The notes under the pieces were generated by a model, which saw only the letters and a list, made by a program, of their open reading frames with translations, had not been told where the DNA came from and ran no database searches. Shown here one piece after another: positions 56,015-59,543 of a DNA stretch of 64,000 nucleotides (within the stretch, counting starts at the first letter, position 1; each line of letters starts with the position of its first letter). Made by a program: the position numbers and the translations under genes. Source of the DNA: Oricola sp. (GTDB lineage: Bacteria; Pseudomonadota; Alphaproteobacteria; Rhizobiales; Rhizobiaceae); the NCBI RefSeq assembly GCF_022763245.1, contig NZ_JALEGV010000041.1, positions 186,001 to 250,000 on the forward strand, given 5' to 3'.

Positions 56015-57592
56015 ATGAACCAGGTGATGGCGACATTGCGGCTGATGCGGGCCGGCTGGGTGCTGGTTCGCGAAGGCGTCATCGCCGGCCTTCCGGCGCA
56101 GGGGCTGACCGGTCCGGCCGCAACCGGCCACCGTCTCGCCACCGCGCTGGCGCGCAAGCGCTCGAAATCACTCGACAATGCCGAGCGCATGTCGAAGGCG
56201 ATCGCCCGGCTTGGCCCGTCCTATGCCAAGCTCGGCCAGTTTCTGGCCACGCGACCCGACGTGATCGGCCTCGACCTCGCGCTTGATCTCGCCCATCTGC
56301 AGGACCGGATGGACAGTTTCCCGATGGCCCAGTCGATGGCCCGCATCGAGGATTCGCTGGGCCGCCCGGTCGATGAACTGTTCGAGGAGATCGGCGAGCC
56401 GGTGGCCGCCGCCTCGATCGCTCAAGTGCATCCGGCGACCATCCGCGACGAGGACGGCACGCTGCGCAAGGTCGCCGTGAAAGTGATCCGGCCGGGCGTC
56501 CGCCGCCGCTTCGCCGCCGATCTCGACGCCTTCTTCCTGTTCGCCCAGCTGCAGGAAAAGCACATTCCCTCCTCGCGCCGGCTGCGGCCGGTGGCCATCG
56601 CCGAAACGCTGGCGCAGTCGACCAAGATCGAGATGGATCTGCGGCTTGAGGCCGCCGCGCTCGCCGAGATGCACGAAAACACGGTCGACGATCCCGGTTT
56701 CAGGGTGCCGAAGGTGGACTGGCTGCGCACCGGCCGCGACGTGCTGACGCTCGAATGGGTCGACGGCATCAAGATGTCGGAGGTCGATCAACTGCGCGCC
56801 GCCGGGCACGATCTCGACGCGCTCGCCGACGCGCTGGTGCAGAATTTCCTGCGCCAGGCCATGCGCGACGGCTTCTTCCACGCCGACATGCATCCCGGCA
56901 ATCTCTTCGTCGACCCGAAGGGCGACATCGTCGCCGTCGATCTGGGCATTGCCGGCCGCATCGGGCTGAAGGAACGTCGCTTCCTCGCAGAAATCCTGTT
57001 CGGTTTCATCCGCCGCGACTTCCAGCGCGTCGCCCGGGTGCATTTCGAAGCCGGTTATGTGCCGCCGCATCACGATGTCGAGGCTTTCGCCCAGGCCATC
57101 CGCGCCATCGGCGAGCCGATCCACGGCCAGCCGGCCGAGACCATCTCGATGGCCAACCTGCTGACGCTCCTCTTCGAGGTCACCGACATCTTCGACATGC
57201 AGACCCGGCCCGAGCTTCTCCTGCTTCAAAAGACCATGGTCGTGGTGGAGGGCAACGCGCGCACGCTCAATCCGCGCTTCAACATGTGGAAGGCGTCGGA
57301 ACCGGTGGTGGGCGACTGGATCGCGCGCAATCTCGGACCCGCGGCGATCCTGACGGACGCACGCGGCGGCCTGGAATCGCTCGGCCGCCTGGCCCGTGCC
57401 CTGCCGGAATTGGCCGACCGCACCGAACGCCTGTCGCACGAGGTCGGCGATATGGCGGAAAACGGCATGAAGCTCGATCCGGAAACCGTCACCGCCATCG
57501 GCAAGGCGGAAGCGCGCCAGTCGCGCTCGGGCCGCGTCGCGCTCTGGGTCATCGCGCTCGCCATGCTCTGGATCGCCTGGCAGGTGAGCTGA
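56015..57592 (+). CDS. ubiB: Ubiquinone biosynthesis regulatory protein kinase-like UbiB
   Basis: A 525-residue atypical kinase-like ATPase needed for ubiquinone synthesis. The family marks are KxGQ in SYAKLGQFLATRPDV, the alanine-rich loop AAASIAQVHPA in place of the glycine-rich loop, GFFHADMHPGNLF, and AVDLGIAGRI. A hydrophobic helix ends the protein (LWVIALAMLWIAWQ), so it is membrane-bound. In most relatives coaBC follows directly; here a toxin-antitoxin pair intervenes. Confidence 0.96.
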   Translation: MNQVMATLRLMRAGWVLVREGVIAGLPAQGLTGPAATGHRLATALARKRSKSLDNAERMSKAIARLGPSYAKLGQFLATRPDVIGLDLALDLAHLQDRMDSFPMAQSMARIEDSLGRPVDELFEEIGEPVAAASIAQVHPATIRDEDGTLRKVAVKVIRPGVRRRFAADLDAFFLFAQLQEKHIPSSRRLRPVAIAETLAQSTKIEMDLRLEAAALAEMHENTVDDPGFRVPKVDWLRTGRDVLTLEWVDGIKMSEVDQLRAAGHDLDALADALVQNFLRQAMRDGFFHADMHPGNLFVDPKGDIVAVDLGIAGRIGLKERRFLAEILFGFIRRDFQRVARVHFEAGYVPPHHDVEAFAQAIRAIGEPIHGQPAETISMANLLTLLFEVTDIFDMQTRPELLLLQKTMVVVEGNARTLNPRFNMWKASEPVVGDWIARNLGPAAILTDARGGLESLGRLARALPELADRTERLSHEVGDMAENGMKLDPETVTAIGKAEARQSRSGRVALWVIALAMLWIAWQVS

Positions 57593-57598
57593 GCAAAT

Positions 57599-57636
57599 TT
57601 GACTGCATTGCAGTCAATGCCTACATTGAATGCAAT
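57599..57636 (+). promoter_or_regulatory. Promoter and nested operators of the toxin-antitoxin operon
   Basis: TTGACT (57599-57604), 17 bases, TACATT (57622-57627). TTGACTGC-ATT-GCAGTCAA (57599-57617) is a perfect palindrome covering the -35. ATTGCAGTCAATG (57607-57619) also pairs with CATTGAATGCAAT (57624-57636) at 12 of 13 positions over the -10. Such nested sites suit a ribbon-helix-helix antitoxin. Confidence 0.65.
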
Positions 57637-57650
57637 CAATGGAGGCGATC

Positions 57651-57893
57651 ATGGCGACGCTGACGATCCGCAATCTCGACGATCAGGTCAAACAGGCTCT
57701 CCGCGAGCAGGCCGCCCGTCACGGCGTGTCGATGGAGGAGGAAGTCCGCACGTTGCTGACGAAGGCCGTTTCGAGTGGCGGACGGCGCAGGCTGACCGCA
57801 GAGGAAATCGTCGCCAAACATGCGCGGTCGCCGGACAAGCCGGTCGATCAGAAGGCATTGTCCGACGCGATGTGGGAGGAGTCCTTTGACTAG
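57651..57893 (+). CDS. FitA-like ribbon-helix-helix antitoxin
   Basis: An 80-residue antitoxin. The N-terminal ribbon-helix-helix (MATLTIRNLDDQVKQALREQ) is the FitA type and binds the operator; the C-terminal tail (residues about 50-80) should wrap the toxin. GGAGG lies five bases before ATG 57651; ATG 57630 upstream is less likely because it lies at the expected transcription start. Its end overlaps the toxin start by eight bases. Confidence 0.9.
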   Translation: MATLTIRNLDDQVKQALREQAARHGVSMEEEVRTLLTKAVSSGGRRRLTAEEIVAKHARSPDKPVDQKALSDAMWEESFD

Positions 57894-58299
57894 TTTGGTC
57901 GTCGATACATCGGCTCTCATCGCGATCCTAGCGAACGAAGAGGAAGCCCTGTCCTTCAGCCGGGCGATCGTTTCCGCGCATTCTGCCATGGTGAGCAGTG
58001 CAACCGTTCACGAAGCCAATTGCGTGGTGGCGCGCGGGAGTTTCGGCCGAAGCGCCACGGACGTGGCTGACCTGATCTCCGATCTCGACATCCGCCAGAT
58101 CAGCTTCGCGCGGGAGCAGGTCGATGCGGCCAGAGACGCCTATGTTGCGTTCGGCCGCGGCTCCGGCCATCCGGCGCGGCTGAACATGGGCGACTGCTTT
58201 TCCTACGCGCTGGCGAGAACGCGCGACCTGCCGCTGCTTTTCAAGGGCGACGATTTCATCCATACCGACATCCGCCCGGCACTGGCGGTGGACCCATGA
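57886..58299 (+). CDS. FitB/VapC-like PIN domain toxin
   Basis: A 137-residue PIN ribonuclease. The acidic metal-binding residues are in place: Asp in VVDTSALIAI, Glu in VHEANCVV, Asp in NMGDCFSYALA and Asp in FKGDDF. It therefore looks active. VapC-type toxins cut tRNA or rRNA loops. TTG 57886 is the start because GGAGGAG precedes it by five bases. Its stop overlaps the coaBC start (ATGA), which couples a toxin to an essential gene. Confidence 0.9.
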   Translation: MTSLVVDTSALIAILANEEEALSFSRAIVSAHSAMVSSATVHEANCVVARGSFGRSATDVADLISDLDIRQISFAREQVDAARDAYVAFGRGSGHPARLNMGDCFSYALARTRDLPLLFKGDDFIHTDIRPALAVDP

Positions 58300-59543
58300 C
58301 GATCACGCAGACCCTCTCCGGAAAACGCATCCTGCTGATCATCGGCGGCGGGATCGCGGCCTATAAATGCCTCGACCTGATCCGTCGGCTGCGCGAGCGC
58401 GGCGCGACCGTGCGCCCGGTGATGACGCGCGCCGCCGCCGAATTCGTGACCCCGCTGTCGGTCGGCGCGCTCGCCGCGACGAAGGTGTTCACCGAGTTGT
58501 TCGACCGCGATGACGAGCAGGATGTCGGTCACATCCGCCTGGCGCGCGAGACCGATCTGATCGTGGTCGCCCCGGCGACCGCCGACCTCATGGCGAAAAT
58601 GGCGACGGGCCTTGCCAACGATCTCGCCTCCACCATCCTGCTCGCCGCCGGATCGCCCGTGCTGGTCGCGCCGGCGATGAACCCGCATATGTGGAGGCAC
58701 CCGGCGACGCGTCGCAACCGCGAGGCGCTTGCCCGCGACGGCATTCGCTTCGTCGGGCCCAATGCCGGTGAAATGGCCGAATCGGGCGAGGCGGGCGAGG
58801 GCCGCATGGCCGAACCGTTGGAAATTGTCGCCGCGATCGAACAGGTCTGCGCGGCCGCGCCGAAACCCCTGTCCGGCAAGCGGATCGTCATCACCTCCGG
58901 ACCGACGCATGAGCCGATCGATCCGGTGCGCTACATCGCCAACCGTTCCTCCGGCAAGCAGGGCCACGCGATTGCCGCCGCCTTGGCCCGGCTCGGCGCC
59001 GACGTGCAGTTGGTCTCCGGCCCGGTCTCCATCGCCGATCCCGACGGCGTGACAGTCACCCGAGTGGAGACGGCGCGGCAGATGCAAGCCTCCGTGGAAC
59101 GCCTGTTGCCTGCCGACGCGGCGATCTTCGCCGCCGCGGTCGCGGACTGGCGTGCCGCGACCGAAGCCGCCGACAAGATGAAGAAGGACGGCGGCAAGGG
59201 GCCGGAATCGCTGCCGTTGACGGAAAATCCCGACATCCTCGCAGGCATCGGAACGCACGGGTCGCTGCGCCCCGGCTTGGTCATCGGTTTTGCCGCCGAG
59301 ACGGAAAAGCTGATCGAACACGCCACCGCCAAGCTCAAACGCAAGGGTGCGGATCTTATCGTCGCCAATGACGTGTCGCCGGATTCAGGCATCGGCGGTT
59401 CGGGCGTGATGGGCGGAGACCGCAACCGCATCACGCTCCTGTCGCAAGATGGCGCCGAGGCATGGCCGGAAATGGGCAAGGACGAGGTCGCCGAACGCCT
59501 GGCCGCACTGGTGGCGGAACGGCTGTCCGGCAGCGAGCGCTGA
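58296..59543 (+). CDS. coaBC: Bifunctional phosphopantothenoylcysteine decarboxylase/synthetase
   Basis: CoaBC makes 4'-phosphopantetheine in coenzyme A synthesis. The 415-residue protein has the flavin-binding CoaC half (ILLIIGGGIAAYKCLDLI, the catalytic His in VGHIRLA, PAMNPHMW) and the CoaB half (TSGPTHEPIDPVRYIANRSSGKQG). The E. coli catalytic Cys158 position reads GEMAESGEAGEGRM, without Cys; this form is usual in alphaproteobacteria as I recall. There is no room for its own promoter, so it depends on ubiE/ubiB read-through and the toxin-antitoxin promoter. Confidence 0.95.
   Translation: MTITQTLSGKRILLIIGGGIAAYKCLDLIRRLRERGATVRPVMTRAAAEFVTPLSVGALAATKVFTELFDRDDEQDVGHIRLARETDLIVVAPATADLMAKMATGLANDLASTILLAAGSPVLVAPAMNPHMWRHPATRRNREALARDGIRFVGPNAGEMAESGEAGEGRMAEPLEIVAAIEQVCAAAPKPLSGKRIVITSGPTHEPIDPVRYIANRSSGKQGHAIAAALARLGADVQLVSGPVSIADPDGVTVTRVETARQMQASVERLLPADAAIFAAAVADWRAATEAADKMKKDGGKGPESLPLTENPDILAGIGTHGSLRPGLVIGFAAETEKLIEHATAKLKRKGADLIVANDVSPDSGIGGSGVMGGDRNRITLLSQDGAEAWPEMGKDEVAERLAALVAERLSGSER

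Follow-up and report, generated by a model that had tools for sequence, protein, structure and literature searches.

Several described systems bear on the locus considered here. The operator of FitAB from Neisseria gonorrhoeae consists of inverted repeats in the promoter, as do the candidate operator sequences of our locus, whose antitoxin is a ribbon-helix-helix (RHH) protein of the Pfam FitA-like family; we know of no instance in which FitAB drives a metabolic gene. VapBC30 of Mycobacterium tuberculosis and VapBC10 of Sinorhizobium meliloti resemble the locus in possessing a PIN toxin of the VapC30 kind and an overlapping antitoxin gene, but differ from it in that the pair described below stands in line with an essential biosynthetic gene, coaBC. 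In the published account, VapC10 is described as VapC30-like, both toxins as cleaving tRNA-Ser and VapBC operons as autoregulated, and a term search of it found no mention of coaBC (PMC10945364). A different precedent is trifunctional PutA, which unites an RHH domain with proline dehydrogenase and P5C dehydrogenase and which, as a flavoenzyme bearing its RHH at the N-terminus, acts as the repressor of its own regulon (PMC5293562). The RHH-CoaBC proteins found in relatives of our organism likewise carry an N-terminal RHH on a flavoenzyme, although the enzyme and pathway are different, the RHH is of the antitoxin type, and CoaBC of the locus itself is unfused. Finally, HigA-type and phage Cro/C2-type helix-turn-helix (HTH) repressors are similar to the modelled N-terminal domain of four Oricola CoaBCs, with the differences that the HTH is there fused to CoaBC and that no PIN match was detected in the stretch before coaBC in these genomes. 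Nothing linking CoaBC with an RHH was found in the literature searched, which was largely open access, and CoaBC, antitoxin and operon together led only to a Microcystis transcriptome; a term search of PMC2701414 gave no occurrence of pantothen, Dfp or coaBC. For Brucella ovis CoaBC, a table in PMC9045290 places the flavoprotein domain at residues 7-180, so the protein as annotated there has no room for an RHH.

The window, that is, the whole 64-kb stretch of a 5.6-Mb Oricola sp. genome that was analysed, carries ubiB and, after it, the antitoxin gene, the PIN toxin gene and coaBC as one overlapping gene string, with the following features.

56015-57592, forward strand: ubiB, the upstream neighbour (NCBIfam TIGR01982, 524.3 bits against a cut-off of 487.55)
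57599-57627, forward strand: promoter-like site TTGACT-17-TACATT (a consensus match only; the single such site in 57400-58500, where shuffled sequences gave 0.1 on average)
57600-57616, no strand: operator-like perfect 17-bp palindrome TGACTGCATTGCAGTCA, overlapping the promoter-like site; single match in the 64-kb window
57626-57639, no strand: second, imperfect inverted repeat TTGAATGCAATCAA, read from the sequence by eye
57651-57893, forward strand: FitA/VapB-type RHH antitoxin, 80 aa (Pfam FitA-like_RHH PF22513, 73.1 bits against a cut-off of 27)
57886-58299, forward strand: VapC-type PIN toxin, VapC30-like, 137 aa, TTG start (Pfam PIN PF01850, 58.6 bits against a cut-off of 23.6)
58296-59543, forward strand: coaBC, 415 aa (TIGR00521, 401.4 bits against a cut-off of 219.7)

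A first-pass annotation had placed a FitA-like antitoxin and a PIN toxin with all of its metal-binding acids between ubiB and coaBC, the toxin stop overlapping the coaBC start as ATGA. The profile matches confirmed the identities and the gene order; the acids D7, E43, D103 and D123 are invariant in an alignment of nine toxins from the site before coaBC; and the ATGA was located at 58296-58299, a 4-bp overlap of the toxin stop with the coaBC ATG. The antitoxin frame runs from an ATG at 57651, with GGAGG closely 5' of it, to a TAG ending at 57893, and overlaps by 8 bp (57886-57893) the toxin frame, which ends with the TGA at 58299 and most likely starts at the TTG at 57886, with GGAGGAG at 57875-57881. 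Two features of VapBC systems are thus present, a PIN toxin with conserved acids and a small RHH antitoxin gene directly upstream and overlapping it. Within that group VapC30 is the nearest solved relative by sequence: a profile of the toxin family matched PDB 4xgq (VapC30) at E 1e-39, the next match being at 9e-4, and by analogy with VapC30 and VapC10 the toxin may cleave tRNA-Ser. CoaBC starts at 58296 without an RHH, the antitoxin being a separate gene, so a PutA-like layout is absent from the window. A search of the genome at E <= 0.001 gave a single coaBC match, and among named CoaBCs the closest, at 88% identity, belongs to Oricola nitratireducens (L178).

A VapBC-type operator is suggested by the palindrome TGACTGCATTGCAGTCA, a candidate recognized from sequence that overlaps the promoter-like site and ends 34 bp from the antitoxin ATG; it is unique in the 64 kb with up to two mismatches, and 100 shuffles yielded none. 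The TTGAATGCAATCAA repeat is possibly part of the same operator. Within 57400-58500, scans found no terminator-like site and, by consensus matching, no separate promoter between the pair and coaBC. Read-through from ubiB or a weak promoter within the toxin gene could nevertheless feed coaBC unregulated.

To place this arrangement among its relatives, the junction before coaBC was compared across genomes, as the first-pass annotation had proposed. A CoaBC search gave a match in 100 of 101 genomes, 61 from the window's family and 40 from other families of the order. The family sample comprised the window, five congeners and one genome per other genus, and 59 of its 61 genomes were classed; of the other two, G048 offered only a fragment, and in G036, which also carries the pair, the contigs break inside coaBC. 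The 59 classed genomes comprise 15 RHH-CoaBC fusions, eight pairs, four HTH-CoaBC fusions, three lone antitoxins, one lone antitoxin with a toxin scrap, one toxin scrap and 27 without a module; among these 27, ubiB adjoins coaBC in 13 and was not found beside coaBC in 14. The module is therefore dispensable, and an ancient arrangement fixed in nearly all relatives can be ruled out. In the other families of the order, where 32 of 40 genomes were classed and one of the remaining eight had no CoaBC match, there were one fusion, one lone antitoxin and 30 junctions with neither. An insertion unique to the window genome was likewise rejected, since whole pairs stand at 69 distinct loci in a larger set, in which 320 of 357 fetched loci had a usable coaBC start and 272 were distinct. 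This set was selected rather than random, fusion- and toxin-search matches having been fetched deliberately; it holds 106 fused loci, two fused loci behind an intact pair, the 69 pairs of antitoxin and whole toxin, 11 lone antitoxins, one antitoxin with a toxin scrap (L070), two toxin scraps, four HTH fusions and 77 loci with none of these.

Two properties of these loci bear on how the pair relates to coaBC. In 66 of 68 toxin-antitoxin loci, toxin and coaBC overlap or lie no more than 20 bp apart, and 17 of the 68 share the 4-bp overlap. Because of this tight spacing, shared translation and transcription of toxin and coaBC is the likely state, and of the earlier proposal that coaBC is coupled to the toxin and to the antitoxin promoter, the tight arrangement and the lack of a visible separate promoter hold, the promoter itself standing at the level of a consensus match; coupling in the window is likely on these grounds. 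The companion proposal, that coupling stabilises the module, finds no support: toxins have been lost while coaBC stayed. Nitratireductor luteus and G029 have toxin scraps of 20 and 22 residues in front of an intact coaBC, and the Oricola relative G002 has one of 18 residues that is a weaker match (E 0.005); these C-terminal PIN remnants lie right before intact coaBC at L179:2915-2974, L070:2411-2476 and, for the weak one, L007:1433-1486.

Other variants of the junction were also seen. Eight loci (L159, L160, L165, L172, L203, L258, L263 and L267) carry double antitoxin-type RHH genes followed by one PIN toxin and coaBC. Lone antitoxins with another C-terminal type lie about 600-700 bp 5' of coaBC at L350, L353 and L356 (genomes G344, G300 and G382), and the two partial RHH matches at L246 more likely represent one broken or misread antitoxin than two.

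A PutA-like layout occurs in relatives, and across the selected set of distinct loci the antitoxin RHH is in frame with CoaBC in 108 of 272. A Pfam scan of eight fusion proteins showed PF22513 (52.6-66.9 bits, cut-off 27) and Flavoprotein PF02441 in one chain in seven, with DFP PF04127 also present in six of these and the seventh cut by the fetched stretch; the eighth protein is the HTH form. The two fusions scored against the CoaBC equivalog model reached 398 and 374 bits, above its cut-off of 219.7. With a query consisting of RHH, linker and the start of CoaBC, one open frame across the whole query was found in at least 89 of 394 family genomes from at least 27 genera; carriers include Phyllobacterium, many Mesorhizobium, Ahrensia kielensis, Zhengella mangrovi, Oceaniradius stylonematis and a Notoacmeibacter MAG. 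An order-wide draw of 297 genomes added ten fusion genomes outside the family, from two other families, nine in one (with genomes of 6.1-8.8 Mb) and one in the other. A class-wide search returned 0 of 289 genomes at E 1e-26, a strict limit applied to a sample that included no known-positive genome, so that absence beyond the order is not implied.

The fused RHH is under purifying selection and the linker far less so: in pairs of equal linker length, pN/pS was 0.09 for the RHH, against 0.13 over the start of CoaBC and 0.54 in the linker, a contrast resting on 284 of 2097 pairs, mostly from Mesorhizobium, and over all 2097 pairs the values were 0.34 for the RHH and 0.29 for CoaBC. An AlphaFold model built with 16 sequences (mean pLDDT 78) has helices at residues 11-24 and 28-40 followed by the enzyme, with low confidence at residues 1-4 and 41-55. 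By eye, the toxin-binding tail of the antitoxin is mostly gone in the aligned fusions and a variable linker stands in its place, L337 being one of the exceptions. Upstream of the CoaBC core, an in-frame ATG lies within 20 codons in 21 of 108 fused loci, one of four HTH loci and 141 of 160 unfused ones; once GTG and TTG are counted too, the numbers rise to 66 of 108, three of four and 156 of 160, which leaves room for some internal starts in the fused genes. In the Mesorhizobium-type loci L185, L205 and L337, a pair-type antitoxin tail reads directly into CoaBC, and these are apparently young, separate fusions. At L200 (2090-3001) and L287 (623-1599, both coaBC-oriented), an intact antitoxin-toxin pair lies directly 5' of an RHH-CoaBC gene; the pair has its own operator-like repeats, and the RHH-CoaBC behind it has differently spelled ones.

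A second, unrelated DNA-binding fusion occurs within Oricola itself, where four congeners carry a lambda-repressor-like HTH fused N-terminally to CoaBC (L003, L004, L005 and L006, from 1234-1246 to about 1450, coaBC-oriented, with an inverted repeat before the gene). The first approximately 69 residues form five helices in one AlphaFold model from two sequences, with pLDDT 79-90 over residues 1-70; this model is the best of five, the other four averaging 49-66. Foldseek placed 434 Cro, P22 C2, SinR and HigA near the top for this model (best E 0.006, probability 1.00), with no match at E 0.001. By profiles, nothing in Pfam matched the domain and HigA TIGR02607 stayed below its cut-off; matches to TALE proteins were set aside as they look like repeat artefacts. 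Inverted repeats resembling TTCCAA...TTGGAA precede all four HTH-coaBC genes, one with a mismatch and that of L004 with matched changes in both arms (judged by eye), and a perfect 7-bp inverted repeat precedes three of the four (17% of shuffled sequences).

In the relatives, as in PutA, the self-repressing enzyme would have an operator before its own gene, and at the sequence level operator-like sites are indeed present there. Two patterns, the direct form TGATTGCANTGATTGCA and the palindrome TGATTGCANTGCAATCA, were scored with a match of at least 13/16. They were found, respectively, in 84 and 62 of 106 fused loci, 23 and 30 of 69 pairs, four and four of nine lone antitoxins, and none and two of the two loci with pair plus fusion, the patterns having been derived from the same sequences that were later scored. 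Neither occurred in the four HTH loci or in 79 loci without RHH or HTH, for which scoring covered the 150 bp upstream of coaBC, in many cases coding sequence of ubiB, and which include the two loci with only a toxin scrap; shuffled sequences reached at most 0.8%. Ten fusions came from the order-wide search, eight of them from other families; nine reach 13/16 to one pattern, four exactly, and the tenth, L361, a fusion of a pair-type antitoxin, reaches 12/16. Across 40 whole genomes with fusions, 57 sites matched with up to one mismatch, 32 of them (in 31 genomes) lying 18-76 bp 5' of the fused start and 25 elsewhere; nine of the 40 have no such site before coaBC, ten of the 11 exact sites lie directly before coaBC, and a reversed control pattern gave a single site over the 40 together. 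The patterns derive from these upstream regions, which makes the count near coaBC partly circular; this does not apply to the rarity elsewhere. Sigma-70-like sites (at least 9/12, within 110 bp upstream of the antitoxin or fused gene) precede 27 of 69 pairs (shuffled 2.3%), only 14 of these 27 with an operator core, 28 of 106 fused genes (shuffled 9.3%), 23 of them with the core, and three of nine lone antitoxins; none was found before the four HTH genes, the two loci with pair plus fusion or the 79 without RHH or HTH.

Covariation between protein and DNA gives a further line of evidence. Residue 3 of the RHH, which we take to sit in the DNA-reading strand, goes with the half-site GATTGCA: in fused loci the half-site accompanies Ser3 in 94 of 97 cases against two of nine without it, and a weaker contrast is seen in toxin-antitoxin pairs (five of 11 with Ser3 vs nine of 58 without, p 0.04). 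The CoaBC tree supplies 11 independent pairs that differ in Ser3; in 8.0 of them the half-site follows the residue and in 0.1 it runs opposite (median p 0.008, range 0.004-0.07). The half-site is associated with fusion as well (10 independent pairs, on average 6.9 the same way and 0.0 opposite), so the effects of Ser3 and of architecture are not fully separable. More broadly, operator-like sites accompany an RHH at the locus in 119 of 177 cases and occur in two of 34 without one; on the tree, this association runs the same way in 6.0 of nine independent pairs and the other way in 0.1 (median p 0.03, range 0.008-0.6). These patterns suggest residue 3 as a determinant of operator specificity.

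The history of the junction can be read in part from this tree, which was built with FastTree from 214 of the 272 loci, 58 being left out for a CoaBC stretch shorter than 360 aa. In it, the window clusters with the four HTH-CoaBC congeners (99), and G002 joins this group next (96), so that one genus seems to show a pair, an HTH fusion and a decayed pair. The fused state changes at least 22 times, 14 of the changes being forced by the starred branches, and the toxin-antitoxin state about 30 times; repeated capture and exchange of modules before coaBC, whichever form came first, is the likely course. In a comparison of 40 residues, which has little resolution, the nearest RHH of a fused RHH is another fused one in 103 of 108 cases, an antitoxin in three and a tie in two. 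The main fused lineage accordingly seems old, and only young cases still show descent from a pair at the coaBC junction.

We consider it probable that the window holds a VapBC/FitAB-type pair whose autorepressed promoter also drives coaBC, and that relatives hard-wire the same logic by fusing the RHH to CoaBC. The antitoxin, alone or with the toxin, would bind the palindrome TGACTGCATTGCAGTCA and repress, and its loss or dilution would raise expression of the whole string, coaBC included. The first-pass suggestion that CoA supply answers to antitoxin level gains independent support from the relatives' RHH-CoaBC genes with their operator-like sites, and for the window itself stands as a prediction. 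In these relatives the antitoxin RHH is joined to CoaBC through a variable linker with operator-like sites retained in front, so RHH-CoaBC, like PutA, most likely acts as the repressor of its own gene. Pair, lone antitoxin and RHH-CoaBC, as well as HTH-CoaBC in Oricola, would thereby replace one another before coaBC, and every form would put coaBC behind an autorepressor of antitoxin or phage-repressor type. The best reading is that antitoxin autorepression has been repeatedly recruited for control of coaBC, the window probably representing the unfused form.

Other explanations account for some of these observations. The patchy presence of the pair, its roughly 30 changes of state on the CoaBC tree and the toxin scraps beside intact coaBC would all be expected if the pair were a selfish passenger that comes and goes at a tolerant intergenic site, with coaBC served by read-through or its own promoter and unregulated by the pair; this is unlikely, given that in the window promoter- and operator-like sites lie in front of the pair and none was seen between it and coaBC, that spacing is so tight in nearly all toxin-antitoxin loci, and that fused genes retain operator-like sites and a selected RHH. 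Those same scraps, together with the lone antitoxins and module-free loci, weigh also against the idea that coupling to an essential gene shields the pair from loss, to which the tight overlap in the window and the 4-bp overlaps elsewhere lend some colour and which we regard as quite improbable.

For the fusions, it might be supposed that the RHH is a harmless deletion scar that does not bind DNA, as fusion by deletion is easy at coaBC and the recent cases L337, L185 and L205 keep antitoxin-type tails. Purifying selection on the RHH, the retained operator-like sites and the residue-base covariation make this highly improbable. That RHH-CoaBC acts mainly in trans on other genes, or as an antidote to other VapC toxins, seems more improbable again: the 25 additional sites with up to one mismatch elsewhere in the 40 genomes would suit a trans-acting role, but just one of the 11 exact sites lies away from coaBC, and in the aligned fusions the variable linker replaces the toxin-binding tail, with L337 among the exceptions. 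Autorepression inherited from an antitoxin thus continues to be the reading that we prefer for both the paired and the fused loci.

To our knowledge, little is known about the transcriptional control of CoA synthesis in bacteria. The loci described here offer a concrete candidate regulator of this pathway in many rhizobial relatives, with a putative operator sequence given in full and one residue proposed to set specificity. They also present, at one gene place in living relatives, the pair, the lone antitoxin, toxin scraps, the pair with a fusion and the fusion, and so may illustrate a way for addiction modules to turn into ordinary regulation. For the Hyphomicrobiales as a whole, we judge it fairly likely that toxin-antitoxin modules have been a recurrent source of autorepressors for CoA biosynthesis. 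The antitoxin RHH would have been fused to CoaBC several times, in an old MASITIRNLD-type lineage and in separate young Mesorhizobium fusions, and Oricola would have arrived at a similar arrangement through a phage-repressor/HigA-like HTH. CoaBC in these organisms would then be a self-sensing repressor, the PutA or NadR of CoA synthesis, and the window would preserve its unfused operon form.
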